This document shows positions 5,385-18,599 of a stretch of DNA of 64,000 nucleotides, in pieces (within the stretch, counting starts at the first letter, position 1; each line of letters starts with the position of its first letter). A model generated the notes under the pieces. It was given only the letters and a program-made list of their open reading frames with translations. It searched no databases and was not told the DNA's origin. Position numbers and translations under genes: made by a program. The stretch lies in contig JAIXUS010000068.1 in assembly GCA_027483445.1 (NCBI GenBank), positions 1 through 64,000 of the forward strand. The letters are read 5' to 3'. The stretch is from Bacteroidota bacterium. GTDB lineage: Bacteria > Bacteroidota > Bacteroidia > M30B66.

Positions 5385-5918
5385 TTACCTGAACGTACCA
5401 TACCCCACAAAATGCTGTGAGTAATACGCCTCTTGTAATCGATTCACAACCACGCCTTTCTTCGTGCTGGCATGAATGAAAAAATCCCCGCTAAGGTGCA
5501 TTCCGACGTGCGATACTTTGTTGCCCGAAATTTTGAAAAAATACAAATCGCCCTCCCGAAGCTGTTCTTTTCGAATTCGTTTTGATTTTTCGAATAACAA
5601 TGCCGATTGGTGCTCGACCTTCAATCCGAATACTTTAAGGTAAACTTGCTGAACAAAACCCGAGCAATCGGTTCCTTGTTTGGAGCTTCCACCATAGCGA
5701 TAAGGAGTTCCCATCCACTGTGCTACTTCTTCGAAAAAGCTCCGGTTTGCCGACTCGGGCAACTCTAGTCCAAGCTTACGTTCATAATCACTCAACCCGG
5801 TTTCACGGCGAGGCTTTTCAATGCTTGGCTTGGGCTTCGTTTTACACCCTGATAAAGCAAGCCCAAGCAACAGAACGATACTAAAACAAATGCGTCCGGT
5901 TTTCCAGCAATAGCTCAT
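5385..5918 (-). CDS. NlpC/P60 (C40) cell-wall peptidase lipoprotein
   Basis: This is a predicted gamma-D-glutamyl-diamino-acid endopeptidase that trims peptidoglycan peptides. Counting from the chosen ATG, a signal peptide ends at lipobox Cys25 (LALSGC). The catalytic Cys85 sits in TDCSGF and the two histidines are His137 (SHVG) and His149 (FIHAS). The longer open frame to 5978 adds 20 polar residues before the signal peptide, so the internal ATG is preferred. It still overlaps the end of the upstream YwqK gene by 38 bp, implying translational coupling. The lipid anchor places it at the outer membrane or in the periplasm. Confidence 0.85.
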   Translation of the reverse strand: MSYCWKTGRICFSIVLLLGLALSGCKTKPKPSIEKPRRETGLSDYERKLGLELPESANRSFFEEVAQWMGTPYRYGGSSKQGTDCSGFVQQVYLKVFGLKVEHQSALLFEKSKRIRKEQLREGDLYFFKISGNKVSHVGMHLSGDFFIHASTKKGVVVNRLQEAYYSQHFVGYGTFR

Positions 5919-7449
5919 AATCGGCCGGTTCAAATTCAGGTCTGATTCGCACTCCTTCGTATTCTGTTTCAATGCCATTTCGATACTCTACATCAAGGTA
6001 TGGAAGGCCATCCAAACCATACATGCGCCAAAGGCCTTCGCGTTTTCCGTTCGAATATTTTCCCTCCCAATACAAGGCACCATTAAGTCGAAATGCCTGA
6101 TGTTTTCCTTCGGGATTTCCCTGATTAAACTTTCCTCTGAAAGCAAGGGTGCCATCGGGAAAACGATGCTCCCAAACACCATGCATCATTCCTGTTTGAA
6201 AAAATCCCAGAATCCGCTGATTTCCTTGTAAAAACATCCATTTTCCTTCCCGTTCTCCATCGATAAACTCTCCGAATGCCAGAGTGTCGCCCAGTTCCGA
6301 TAGTTCGAGAGAAAATCCGTCTTCCTGGCCATTTCTGTATTGCTCTTCGCGAAGTAAAACCCTGCTTTCATAATACCACTTCCATACGCCGGTAGGTTTA
6401 CCATTTATAAAGCTTCCCTCCTGCTCTGCGGCTCCCGATAAATAATAATACATCCACTTTCCGGAGCGAAAATCATCTTTGTACACTCCTTCGGATTTCA
6501 ATTCTCCACTGAGATAAAACTCCTTCCAAAGACCTTGTCGCCGACCAATAGAATCAAGCATACCAATGGCTGTTCGTTTACCGTCTAAGTAAACTTCTGC
6601 CAGGCTGCTTTGCTTGCTGGTATCGGTTTCGATATGCATTCCCACTGGTTGACCTTGCGCATTAAATGCACCGGTTTTTAATTTCCCATCAACCGTGAAA
6701 CGTTTTCTCACTTCCGGTGGAGTGTTTTCTTGATTGTTCCGCAGAAGAACACCGTCCGCATACTGTTCAAGAAGCTGCAAATTGCCTTGCTGGTCGTAAA
6801 TTTTTCTAAAGCCATCCAACAAACCGTTGCGATACGTTGATTCTTCCTGTATCGATAAATCCGGGTAAAGAGAAAGCCAAACACCAGTTTTCTTATTCTG
6901 CCGATCAAACCTGTTTACCGGCCTTTTCTGAACTAAGGCTCCGTTTCTGTACTCCATCCAATAGAGCAATTGTCCTGTTGAATCGTACTCTGCCGCCTTA
7001 CCATTTTCTTTTCCATGCGAATAAGGAATTACAAAAACTTTTCGGCCATTGAAATGATACCGTTCTGAAAACCCCTCTCGAAAATCATCTACATACCGGT
7101 CGATAGACAAGGGTTTTCCTTCCGGAGAATAATCTGTTTTTAGCCCGTTTTTCTTTCCGCCGCTGTATTGAATAGTGGTTTTTAAAAGCCCATCTTCCGA
7201 ATAAAACTTCCAAAGACTATCGCTTTTCCCTGCTTTTAATTGGCCAATCGATTTCATGGCGCCACCCGGATAATACGACTTCCAGATTCCTTCGGGAATG
7301 CCATTATTCATGGATCCTTCTGAGGACTTTCGGCCATCTGGAAATTTTAATACCACATACCCATTTTTCAACAAGCTATCTTGTGCCTGAAGATTATTCC
7401 AGGCAAAAAATAGTATGGCGAAAAACAGGCATCTAAAAAACTTCATCAA
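5881..7449 (-). CDS. Exported YwqK/MORN-repeat protein
   Basis: The 522-residue product starts with a signal peptide ending at LQAQ (about residue 23). The rest is nearly all tandem repeats of about 23 residues with the pattern G-x-W-x-x-Y-x-x-x-G-x-x-x-x-E-x-x-Y-x-x-G, roughly 18 copies. Such proteins are often labelled YwqK-family antitoxin, but this one is exported and has no toxin partner here, so a surface or periplasmic scaffold role is more likely. Its start overlaps the M16 peptidase stop by 4 bp, and its end overlaps the NlpC/P60 gene. Base composition is AT-rich like the peptidase gene upstream. Confidence 0.75.
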   Translation of the reverse strand: MMKFFRCLFFAILFFAWNNLQAQDSLLKNGYVVLKFPDGRKSSEGSMNNGIPEGIWKSYYPGGAMKSIGQLKAGKSDSLWKFYSEDGLLKTTIQYSGGKKNGLKTDYSPEGKPLSIDRYVDDFREGFSERYHFNGRKVFVIPYSHGKENGKAAEYDSTGQLLYWMEYRNGALVQKRPVNRFDRQNKKTGVWLSLYPDLSIQEESTYRNGLLDGFRKIYDQQGNLQLLEQYADGVLLRNNQENTPPEVRKRFTVDGKLKTGAFNAQGQPVGMHIETDTSKQSSLAEVYLDGKRTAIGMLDSIGRRQGLWKEFYLSGELKSEGVYKDDFRSGKWMYYYLSGAAEQEGSFINGKPTGVWKWYYESRVLLREEQYRNGQEDGFSLELSELGDTLAFGEFIDGEREGKWMFLQGNQRILGFFQTGMMHGVWEHRFPDGTLAFRGKFNQGNPEGKHQAFRLNGALYWEGKYSNGKREGLWRMYGLDGLPYLDVEYRNGIETEYEGVRIRPEFEPADYELLLENRTHLF

Positions 7450-15734: not shown

Positions 15735-16151
15735 ATGATGATCACTGATACCCGATCCGTAAGTTTTTCCTCTGTGAAAGAGAACATCACCTTAGTTGGC
15801 AAGTATGTCGACGAAATCTGTGAATTTTACAATATTGGCGACGAGAATTATGGGAATATTCTCGTGGCAGTTACCGAAGCTGTATCGAATGCGATTTACC
15901 ACGGTAACCGCCTTAATCCCGAAAAGGCCGTGCATTTTCGGTACGAATCCAAAGACAATAGCTTATGCTTTGTTGTAGAAGATGAGGGCAAAGGGTACAA
16001 TCCTGAAACGCTGCCCGACCCTACCGATCCGGAAAATATTGAGACGCCAAACGGAAGAGGTGTTTTTCTGATGCGTAAGCTGAGTGATGACATCAAGTTT
16101 GAAAACAACGGTACCCGGGTAGAATTGTATTTCCGAATCATCAATCAATAA
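15735..16151 (+). CDS. RsbW-like GHKL ATP-binding protein
   Basis: This 138-residue protein is a stand-alone HATPase domain of the anti-sigma-factor kinase (RsbW/SpoIIAB) type. The N box is TEAVSNAIYHGN, the G1 box VEDEGKGYNP, and the G2 box NGRGVFLMRKL. Family members phosphorylate or sequester small STAS-domain or sigma factor partners, but no partner gene is nearby. It lies between the DUF4175 gene and ybeY, an order I recall as common in Bacteroidota. Its TAA at 16149-16151 sits directly at the presumed start of ybeY. Confidence 0.85.
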   Translation: MMITDTRSVSFSSVKENITLVGKYVDEICEFYNIGDENYGNILVAVTEAVSNAIYHGNRLNPEKAVHFRYESKDNSLCFVVEDEGKGYNPETLPDPTDPENIETPNGRGVFLMRKLSDDIKFENNGTRVELYFRIINQ

Positions 16152-16155
16152 AATC

Positions 16156-16584
16156 CTGATTCAGTTTTCTATAGAGACGCCCGGTTTTACGTTAAAGAAC
16201 CGGCGACTGATAAAGAATTGGTTACAAAAGGTTGTCCAACATCATGGTAGCGAGTTGGGCAACCTTTCGTTCATTTTCATGAGCGACGAGCAACTGCTTG
16301 CGATGAATAAGCAATATTTGAATCACGACTATTACACCGATATTATCACCTTTGATTATTCGGAGTCAAGCTTGATCTCCGGCGACTTATTCATTAGTGT
16401 CGATCGCGTTCGAGAAAATGCCAAGCAGCTTAAGGTTTCGTTTAACGAGGAGTTGCATCGAGTTATGGTGCATGGTGTTCTGCATCTTTTGGGCTTTTCT
16501 GACAAGAGTAAAGCTCAGGCCCAAACCATGCGAAAGCAGGAAGATGAAGCGCTTAAAATGACTGATAGTCAGATTGTTGGATAG
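16156..16584 (+). CDS. ybeY: Endoribonuclease YbeY, non-canonical start
   Basis: YbeY is a metal-dependent RNase for 16S rRNA maturation and ribosome quality control. The core YYTDIITFDYSE, ISGDLFIS and HRVMVHGVLHLLGF is intact. The first canonical start codon is TTG at 16255, yet family-like sequence (IQFSIETPGFTLKNRR and on to SELGNLSFIF) reads in frame for about 33 codons before it. No ATG, GTG or TTG occurs there back to the in-frame stop at 16120. Initiation is probably at ATC 16153, CTG 16156 or ATT 16159, right after the upstream stop; the exact codon is a guess. The third His of the usual HGxLHLxGYDH motif is replaced (FSDK). Confidence 0.8.
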   Translation: MIQFSIETPGFTLKNRRLIKNWLQKVVQHHGSELGNLSFIFMSDEQLLAMNKQYLNHDYYTDIITFDYSESSLISGDLFISVDRVRENAKQLKVSFNEELHRVMVHGVLHLLGFSDKSKAQAQTMRKQEDEALKMTDSQIVG

Positions 16585-16692: not shown

Positions 16693-16708
16693 TGTTTCAC
16701 GTGGAACA
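16693..16708 (-). promoter_or_regulatory. parS-like ParB-binding site (exact)
   Basis: The plus strand reads TGTTTCACGTGGAACA, whose reverse complement TGTTCCACGTGAAACA is the 16-bp parS sequence known from Bacillus subtilis and conserved widely. It lies 5 bp before the mnmG start codon. A second, opposite-oriented site follows the gene. Confidence 0.8.
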
Positions 16709-16713
16709 AAGCG

Positions 16714-18582
16714 ATGTTTACTGAATATGATGTTGTAGTTGTTGGTGCTGGCCATGCTGGCTGCGAAGCCGCTGCCTCCGCGGCCAATTTGGGTTCGCGC
16801 GTTTTGTTGGTTACCATGAATATGGCTACGATTGGCCAAATGTCGTGTAATCCGGCCATGGGCGGTATAGCGAAAGGGCAAATTGTTCGCGAAATTGATG
16901 CATTGGGTGGTTATTCCGGAATTGTAAGTGACCGTTCGGCGATACAATTCAAAATGTTAAATCGTTCCAAAGGACCCGCAATGTGGAGTCCGAGGGCACA
17001 AAACGACCGCATGCGGTTTGCCGAGGAGTGGCGATTGATGCTGGAGCAAACATCCAATGTTGATTTTTTCCAAGACATGGTTACTGGCTTACTTGTGTCG
17101 AATGACCGAGTTTGTGGTGTGAAAACCGGATTGGGTGTTGAGATTAAAGCAAAGGCAGTAGTACTTACCAATGGCACTTTTCTCAACGGACTCATTCATA
17201 TCGGAGAAAAGAATTTCGGAGGCGGCAGAGCTGCGGAACGTGCTGCAACTGGAATTACAGAGCAATTGCTAAGCTTTGGGTTTGAAAGTGGCAGAATGAA
17301 AACAGGTACTCCACCGCGGGTGGATGGCCGATCGTTGGATTACTCTAAAATGGAGATTCAACCGGGTGATGACGAACCGGGCGGCTTTTCCTACCTCGAC
17401 TTACCGCGCTTGAATAAGCAACTTCCTTGTTGGATGACATACACCTCGGCCGAAGTTCACGATACGCTCAAAAAGGGTTTTGACAAGAGTCCTATGTTTA
17501 GCGGGCGCATTCAAGGTTTAGGGCCACGTTATTGTCCTTCTATCGAAGATAAGATTGATCGTTTTGCCGACAAAGAACGGCACCAGCTTTTTGTGGAGCC
17601 AGAAGGGTGGAATACGGTGGAGGTTTATGTAAATGGATTTAGCACTTCACTGCCTGAGGATGTTCAGTACGAAGCATTGCGGAAGGTTGTAGGCTTTGAA
17701 AACGTGAAGATGTTTCGCCCCGGTTATGCAATAGAATACGACTATTTTCCGCCAGAGCAGCTTACGCTTACCTTGGAAACCAAGCGAATCGAGAACCTTT
17801 ACTTTGCCGGACAAATCAATGGAACTACAGGTTATGAGGAGGCCGCCGGTCAGGGTTTGATGGCTGGAATTAATGCACACCGTAAAATCCATGGTCAAGG
17901 TGCCTTTGTGTTGTCGCGTTCTGAGGCTTATATCGGTGTCTTAATCGACGATTTGGTAACGAAGGGCACCGAGGAGCCTTATCGTATGTTCACCTCAAGG
18001 GCTGAATACCGAATTTTACTCCGCCAGGACAATGCCGACTTCAGACTTACACCGCGCGGTTATGAGATAGGTTTAGCGTCGAAAGAGCGTTTTGACCGTA
18101 TGCAGGAAAAGTATGCGCGCGTGGATGAGCTCATCGCGTATTTGTCGAAACAAAGCGCGGAGCCCGCTGAGGTAAATCCTTATCTAGAAGCTGTGGGCAC
18201 ACCGCCTATTGTACAAAAGCTAAAATATCCTCCCTTGGTTGCAAGACCACAACTTGAGTTCAGACGCTTTGTTGAGGCGGTTCCTTCGCTCCGGAGCTTT
18301 GTTGAATCGCGAAATATAACCGACGAAGAGCAGGAGTTGGCAGAGATTCAACTTAAGTATGAGGGCTACATTCGAAAGGAACAGGAAATGGCGCAGAAAA
18401 TCGCACGGCTGGAGCATATTGAGTTGCACGCCAACTTTGACTATCATCAGCTAAAGTCGTTGTCGACAGAAGCCCGTCAGAAACTCAGTATCATTAAGCC
18501 CAAAAACATCGGTCAAGCCTCTCGGATTAGCGGAGTTTCGCCTTCAGATATTTCGGTGTTAATGGTGTATCTTGGCCGCTGA
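16714..18582 (+). CDS. mnmG: tRNA uridine 5-carboxymethylaminomethyl modification enzyme MnmG
   Basis: MnmG (GidA) works with MnmE to modify the wobble uridine of several tRNAs, using FAD. The dinucleotide-binding motif [13 protein letters not shown] is at residues 7-19, followed by [11 protein letters not shown], and the family block [17 protein letters not shown] lies in the C-terminal half. At 622 residues the length is normal. The ATG at 16714 is preferred; a frame through the parS site would add residues before the conserved N-terminus. mnmE is not in the window. The gene is enclosed by two parS-like sites, and gidA is an origin-proximal gene in many bacteria. Confidence 0.95.
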
Positions 18583-18583
18583 T

Positions 18584-18599
18584 TGTTCCACGTGAAACC
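18584..18599 (+). promoter_or_regulatory. parS-like ParB-binding site (15 of 16)
   Basis: TGTTCCACGTGAAACC differs from canonical parS only in the last base. It starts one base after the mnmG stop codon and is inverted relative to the site at 16693. Confidence 0.7.

Follow-up and report, generated by a model that had tools for sequence, protein, structure and literature searches.

A putative CUG start codon of ybeY in one order of Bacteroidia

The ybeY locus and its reading frame

The window analysed is a stretch of 64,000 nucleotides on contig C59 of a draft genome of 4.26 Mb (G000) with 2.38% contamination, which its relatives place in the class Bacteroidia. At the locus studied, a long gene that heads the ybeY neighbourhood, and which we take to be DUF4175-like, is followed by a HATPase_c_2 gene (RsbW/SpoIIAB-like), by ybeY and by mnmG. 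The HATPase_c_2 gene, assigned by a profile match, occupies positions 15735-16151 of the forward strand, begins with ATG, encodes 138 amino acids and immediately precedes ybeY in all nine loci of the order; the identity of its protein is 76-98% in eight order relatives. Its TAA (16149-16151), the proposed site of termination ahead of re-initiation, lies 4 nt ahead of the CTG (16156-16158) proposed here as the start codon of ybeY, and the two reading frames differ. The ybeY coding sequence, stop included, extends over 16156-16584 on the same strand and would encode an rRNA maturation RNase YbeY of 142 amino acids. Its downstream neighbour, mnmG (16714-18582, forward strand; TIGR00136, 823.5 bits), has an ordinary ATG start. 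Conservation between G000 and its nearest relative, G004, is much higher in the HATPase anti-sigma-like protein (15735-16151) than in YbeY (97.8% and 73-75%), and the HATPase gene ends with Asn-Gln-stop in eight of the nine order sequences and with His-Gln in G008.

The ybeY frame is open from a TAG at 16120-16122 (forward strand) to the stop at 16582-16584. Reading it codon by codon bore out the preliminary description of this DNA, according to which the frame holds no ATG, GTG or TTG between this TAG and a TTG at 16255-16257 (forward strand): 44 codons intervene, and the TTG is the first usual in-frame start. The same description had placed ATC, CTG and ATT in the ybeY frame directly past the stop of the upstream gene, and they are indeed there, one base beyond the TAA, at 16153, 16156 and 16159. 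If all codons were equally frequent, 44 codons without a usual start would have a chance of about 0.12, which is not rare alone; the absence becomes significant because the protein is conserved ahead of the TTG and because relatives show the same absence.

The product matches two YbeY models above their curated cut-offs, TIGR00043 (105.7 bits, cut-off 45) and PF02130 (102.8 bits, cut-off 25). The three-histidine metal site H-x3-H-x5-H, which we take to be the YbeY motif, is not found in that form, since HGVLHLLGFSD (16471-16503) has Asp at the third position. The pattern HGxLHLxGxxD, with Asp for the third His, occurs in 134 of 137 Bacteroidota ybeY loci, the other three falling outside the search pattern, and we read this Asp as a lineage-wide variant, so that the assignment to YbeY depends on the curated models. 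Across 39 aligned YbeY sequences every catalytic-core column is kept, Phe4 (numbered from the CTG) is invariant and Trp22 is at least 90% conserved; both residues precede the TTG at 16255, and conservation of the protein is present upstream of every usual ybeY start. Over the 32 codons that follow the CTG, G000 and G004 differ by 9, 7 and 18 changes at codon positions 1, 2 and 3, a pattern similar to that of the remainder of the gene (25, 18 and 53). An AlphaFold2 model with a mean pLDDT of 95.6 gives a single packed fold in which strand 1 comprises residues 2-6 and helix 1 residues 16-29, and the TTG corresponds to residue 34, within strand 2 (33-42). On alignment and predicted structure, the stretch of 33 codons that begins with CTG 16156, ends with GAG 16252 and translates as LIQFSIETPGFTLKNRRLIKNWLQKVVQHHGSE is genuine YbeY protein, in agreement with the preliminary description, which had judged about 33 codons ahead of the TTG to be plausible YbeY sequence.

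The start codon across the order and beyond it

All 10 genomes of the order, which belong to one family, were searched, and ybeY was found in nine; in the tenth (G009, 73% complete) it was not found. The codon aligned with CTG 16156 is CTG in seven (G000, G001, G003, G004, G005, G006 and G008) and TTG in two (G002 and G007), and in none of the nine loci is it ATG or GTG. At the equivalent place, other Bacteroidia whose YbeY begins with Met-Ile-x-Phe have ATG (for example L003, L011, L016 and L017). Comparison reduces the candidates ATC, CTG and ATT to the CTG at 16156-16158. The codon before NTG is variable (ATC, GTT, ACT, GCC, GTT, GCA, AAG, TGC and AGT), and the codon after it is ATT, ATA or ATC in eight loci and GTA in G008, so that a start at the following codon cannot be shared by all nine. 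Two genomes read TAG GCC CTG (G001) and TAA GCA CTG (G003), with a single codon between an in-frame stop and the CTG, which leaves no other codon from which to start. The codons CTT, CTC, CTA and TTA make up 57% of the leucine codons in the genome itself and 59% of those within the nine ybeY genes; were the position an internal leucine, NTG in nine of nine would have a chance of about 5e-4 by the leucine usage of 618 predicted genes of the genome, and of 3e-4 by that of the internal leucines in the nine ybeY genes, with relatedness ignored in both values.

Outside the order, a usual start, scored from the in-frame stop up to five codons beyond the anchor, was found in 127 of 128 ybeY loci, the nearest being ATG in 111, GTG in 12 and TTG in four. 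These loci are 80 taken as the best of 92, together with 48 of 50 class genomes, G044 (no match) and G059 (contig beginning inside ybeY) having been left out of the class sample. With one locus per species, this class sample has a usual start in 48 of 48, against its absence from seven of the nine order loci (Fisher p 1.4e-7, a value that does not count independent events, as the nine loci are related and a single origin suffices on the tree). Six loci (L032, L050, L067, L068, L077 and L106) had no nearby start at first and have an ATG a few codons farther up. The one exception is a ybeY of Flavobacteriales MAG-176 (L076, JAHDEG010000006.1), where TAA TGC TTA AAA TTT ATT ATA ATT AGC AAA ATA GTT precedes the core without ATG, GTG or TTG, so that ATT, ATA and similar near-cognates are the sole candidates; it is possibly an independent AUU/AUA start, from one assembly.

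A tree built from HATPase, YbeY and a portion of MnmG groups the order loci, nine in number, in one clade (99/100), and three changes suffice: one gain of CTG followed by two replacements of CTG by TTG, a count that is a parsimony estimate on a tree with several weak inner branches. On this sequence tree the rare start of ybeY is shown as having arisen once and then been kept, while the UUG in two of nine loci indicates that CUG itself is not strictly kept. No report of a rare ybeY start was found in the titles and abstract openings of the literature on CUG/CTG starts or on YbeY start codons.

Other genes were compared as ortholog-like pairs, aligned stop to stop, among G000 (1.02 of 4.26 Mb), G001 (0.37 Mb) and G006 (0.39 Mb). 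Overlapping ORFs were removed before the count, since the rows were otherwise mostly antisense mirrors of real genes, and six G000 pieces with more than 53% G+C, probably contaminants, were retained. Among 298 pairs (138, 91 and 69; 255 different queries), 24 rows had at least five residues aligned ahead of the first usual start in both partners, namely three rows of infC, three of ybeY and 18 others. Read by eye, these 18 have Met, or Val/Leu at the first GTG/TTG, at the onset of protein similarity. Thus ybeY and infC (AUA) are the only genes without a usual start among the 298 pairs, and the rare start belongs to the gene and not to the genome at large. Hexamer coding potential over the 1.02 Mb of G000 recovered infC first; the ybeY N-terminus scored 1.7, below the listing cut of 3.5, which makes this test unfit for counting short missed N-termini, and both tests detect only missing starts of at least five residues. 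As a control infC worked: its ATA stands at the aligned place in all 10 order genomes (L160, on G000:C65 at about 5786-6382 of the minus strand, and L132-L140), mostly behind an AGGAGG Shine-Dalgarno sequence, with an ATG two codons after it in three of the 10. Rare infC starts (AUA/AUU/AUC) look common across the class, beyond the order. A second infC (L131, on G000:C31), with a different and much stronger profile match (260.7 against 178.5 bits), also has an ATA near its start, and its contig is probably a contaminant.

Proposed initiation at the CUG and competing explanations

We consider it very probable, from the comparison of sequences, that translation of ybeY begins at the CUG of 16156-16158, the initiator tRNA reading this codon as formyl-methionine to give a YbeY of 142 amino acids (Met-Ile-Gln-Phe-Ser...), with MIQFSIETPGFTLK as the predicted N-terminal peptide. 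The stop of the upstream gene precedes the ybeY start by 4, 4, 8, 3, 9, 3, 1, 9 and 2 nt in the nine loci, a distance short enough throughout for termination-reinitiation; coupling needs short distances and is reported to be almost abolished at about 20 nt (PMC10666635). Ribosomes that finish the HATPase gene 1-9 nt upstream would re-initiate at the CUG without a Shine-Dalgarno sequence, and immediate re-initiation by a terminating ribosome would most simply account for the use of a codon this weak; we infer that coupled re-initiation is the likeliest mode. The weak CUG would then keep the output of YbeY small and in proportion to translation of the upstream gene. The preliminary description had suggested re-initiation at a rare start codon. 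The rare start stands, and re-initiation is compatible with the gaps and with the lack of a Shine-Dalgarno sequence in all nine loci. The same tight HATPase-ybeY pair occurs with an ATG start in other Bacteroidia (for example L027, L047, L056 and L070), so coupling permits the CUG and does not explain it.

Several points weigh against a CUG start. Initiation complexes on CUG are reported to be less stable than those on AUG, GUG or UUG (PMC11497404), and a selection in mycobacteria did not enrich for CUG even where a Shine-Dalgarno sequence was present (PMC4633059). At the nine ybeY starts no AGGA, GGAG or GAGG was found within 20 nt, so that no strong Shine-Dalgarno sequence compensates for the codon; the phylum hardly uses such sequences. 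A 16S rRNA from which to read the anti-Shine-Dalgarno was not found in G000. A search for conserved RNA structure near the start gave four pairs with no compensatory changes (-0.24 kcal/mol), and an A at -3, which is favoured in Flavobacterium (PMC6847099), is present in just four of nine loci.

Other origins of the N-terminus fit the comparisons less well. Initiation at a neighbouring AUH codon (ATC 16153 or ATT 16159), with the CTG ordinary or untranslated, would resemble infC of the same genomes, which starts with ATA, and such a codon follows the NTG in eight of nine loci; G008 has GTA after and GTT before, and the preceding codon varies while NTG is constant, which makes this reading improbable. 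A far smaller chance attaches to the TTG at 16255 as the true start, with the region before it untranslated. It is the first usual in-frame start, but G004 has CTG at the same position, the next usual starts of the nine genes (+99, +36, +75, +147, +108, +147, +138, +48 and +48 nt) share no place, and strand 1, helix 1 and Phe4 would be deleted; we reject it, and with it the preliminary description's own proviso that the protein might begin there. A fusion of the upstream protein with YbeY, made by a frameshift or by reading through the stop, is hardly credible either: the genes are 1-9 nt apart and share a frame in four of nine loci (gaps 3, 9, 3 and 9), but the gaps modulo 3 (1, 1, 2, 0, 0, 0, 1, 0 and 2) include all three relative frames, and this variation excludes a fixed frameshift or readthrough.

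Least credible of all is a sequencing or assembly error, or a decaying ybeY. In its favour stand the draft state of the genome and a contamination of 2.38%, but the CTG recurs in seven separate species assemblies, the frame is open with substitutions concentrated at third codon positions, and the catalytic-core columns are all kept; an anomaly that most of the species examined share is genuine and no artefact of sequencing. The preliminary description had allowed for an ATG in relatives as a sign of assembly error, and no order relative has one. A quite different standing belongs to the view that the CUG is real but has no regulatory role, being a neutral, tolerated change that translational coupling has rendered harmless. 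To this we give a substantial chance, somewhat short of even: CUG was replaced by UUG twice, and the surroundings are unconserved except for the end of the upstream gene; against it, ATG and GTG, one step away, are absent from all nine loci, and outside the order the nearest start is ATG in 111 of 127.

Precedents, possible feedback and neighbouring elements

Among the closest likenesses to ybeY is infC (IF3), a 30S-related gene with an AUU/AUA start, since in both a rare start is kept across species and low initiation is expected. In Staphylococcus aureus Ribo-Ret located the start of infC at AUA, and autoregulation by IF3 is described as likely (PMC13009471). The two genes differ in that infC has AUA with a Shine-Dalgarno sequence and a rare start widespread in the class, whereas the CUG of ybeY is confined to one order. 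A CTG start was proven by N-terminal sequencing and mutation for rep of FIB plasmid replicons, where it sets a low level (PMC11983097); this gene resembles ybeY in its codon, its protein is held low and it is usually mis-annotated at a downstream GTG, but it is a plasmid gene with a good ribosome-binding site, and ybeY is a chromosomal core gene without one. The same paper cites CTG as the annotated start of 20 genes among nearly 85,000. Rare starts conserved across species are also reported for S. aureus ccpN (AUA) and cvfC1 (AUU), which differ from ybeY in codon and in having an extended Shine-Dalgarno sequence, and reporters of AUA/AUU sites gave about 10% of AUG (PMC13009471). Known termination-reinitiation pairs share the very short stop-to-start distance of HATPase-ybeY, but most overlap by 4 or 1 nt and have normal starts, in contrast to +1 to +9 nt and CUG here (PMC10666635). 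As rare starts lower yield in these precedents, a low, upstream-dependent synthesis of YbeY is expected by analogy.

The ybeY start is best read, from sequence comparison, as a natural, conserved CUG start that is chromosomal, order-wide and in a ribosome-maturation gene, and that would belong to a known, very small kind. Natural bacterial CUG starts are hardly documented, and gene finders limited to ATG, GTG and TTG shorten proteins with such starts. A core ribosome-maturation gene that keeps CUG/UUG throughout an order offers a clean case for the purpose of a weak start codon.

Such a purpose could be sensing, an idea to which we give a low probability. YbeY completes the 3' end of 16S rRNA, and the rate of its synthesis would be limited by the tolerance of ribosomes for a CUG that 30S subunits proofread by IF3 turn away. 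Where 30S is immature or poor in IF3, more initiation at CUG and with it more YbeY would follow, which would close a homeostatic loop alongside infC under its AUA control. In Escherichia coli lacking ybeY, 30S-bound IF3 is reported to be up and IF2 down, with no direct YbeY-IF3 contact found (PMC5101352). YbeY and IF3 are thus linked in E. coli, although the link could tune the loop either way, by sequestration of IF3 or by stronger rejection. Two 30S genes, infC with AUA and ybeY with CUG, would stand under starts expected to respond to initiation fidelity.

Two parS-like palindromes flank mnmG, TGTTTCACGTGGAACA at 16693-16708 and TGTTCCACGTGAAACC, with one mismatch, at 18584-18599. The pattern is presumably a ParB site, and two occurrences at no more than one mismatch compare with 0.01 expected. 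Exact matches were found in 47 of 275 loci, many of them just downstream of ybeY.
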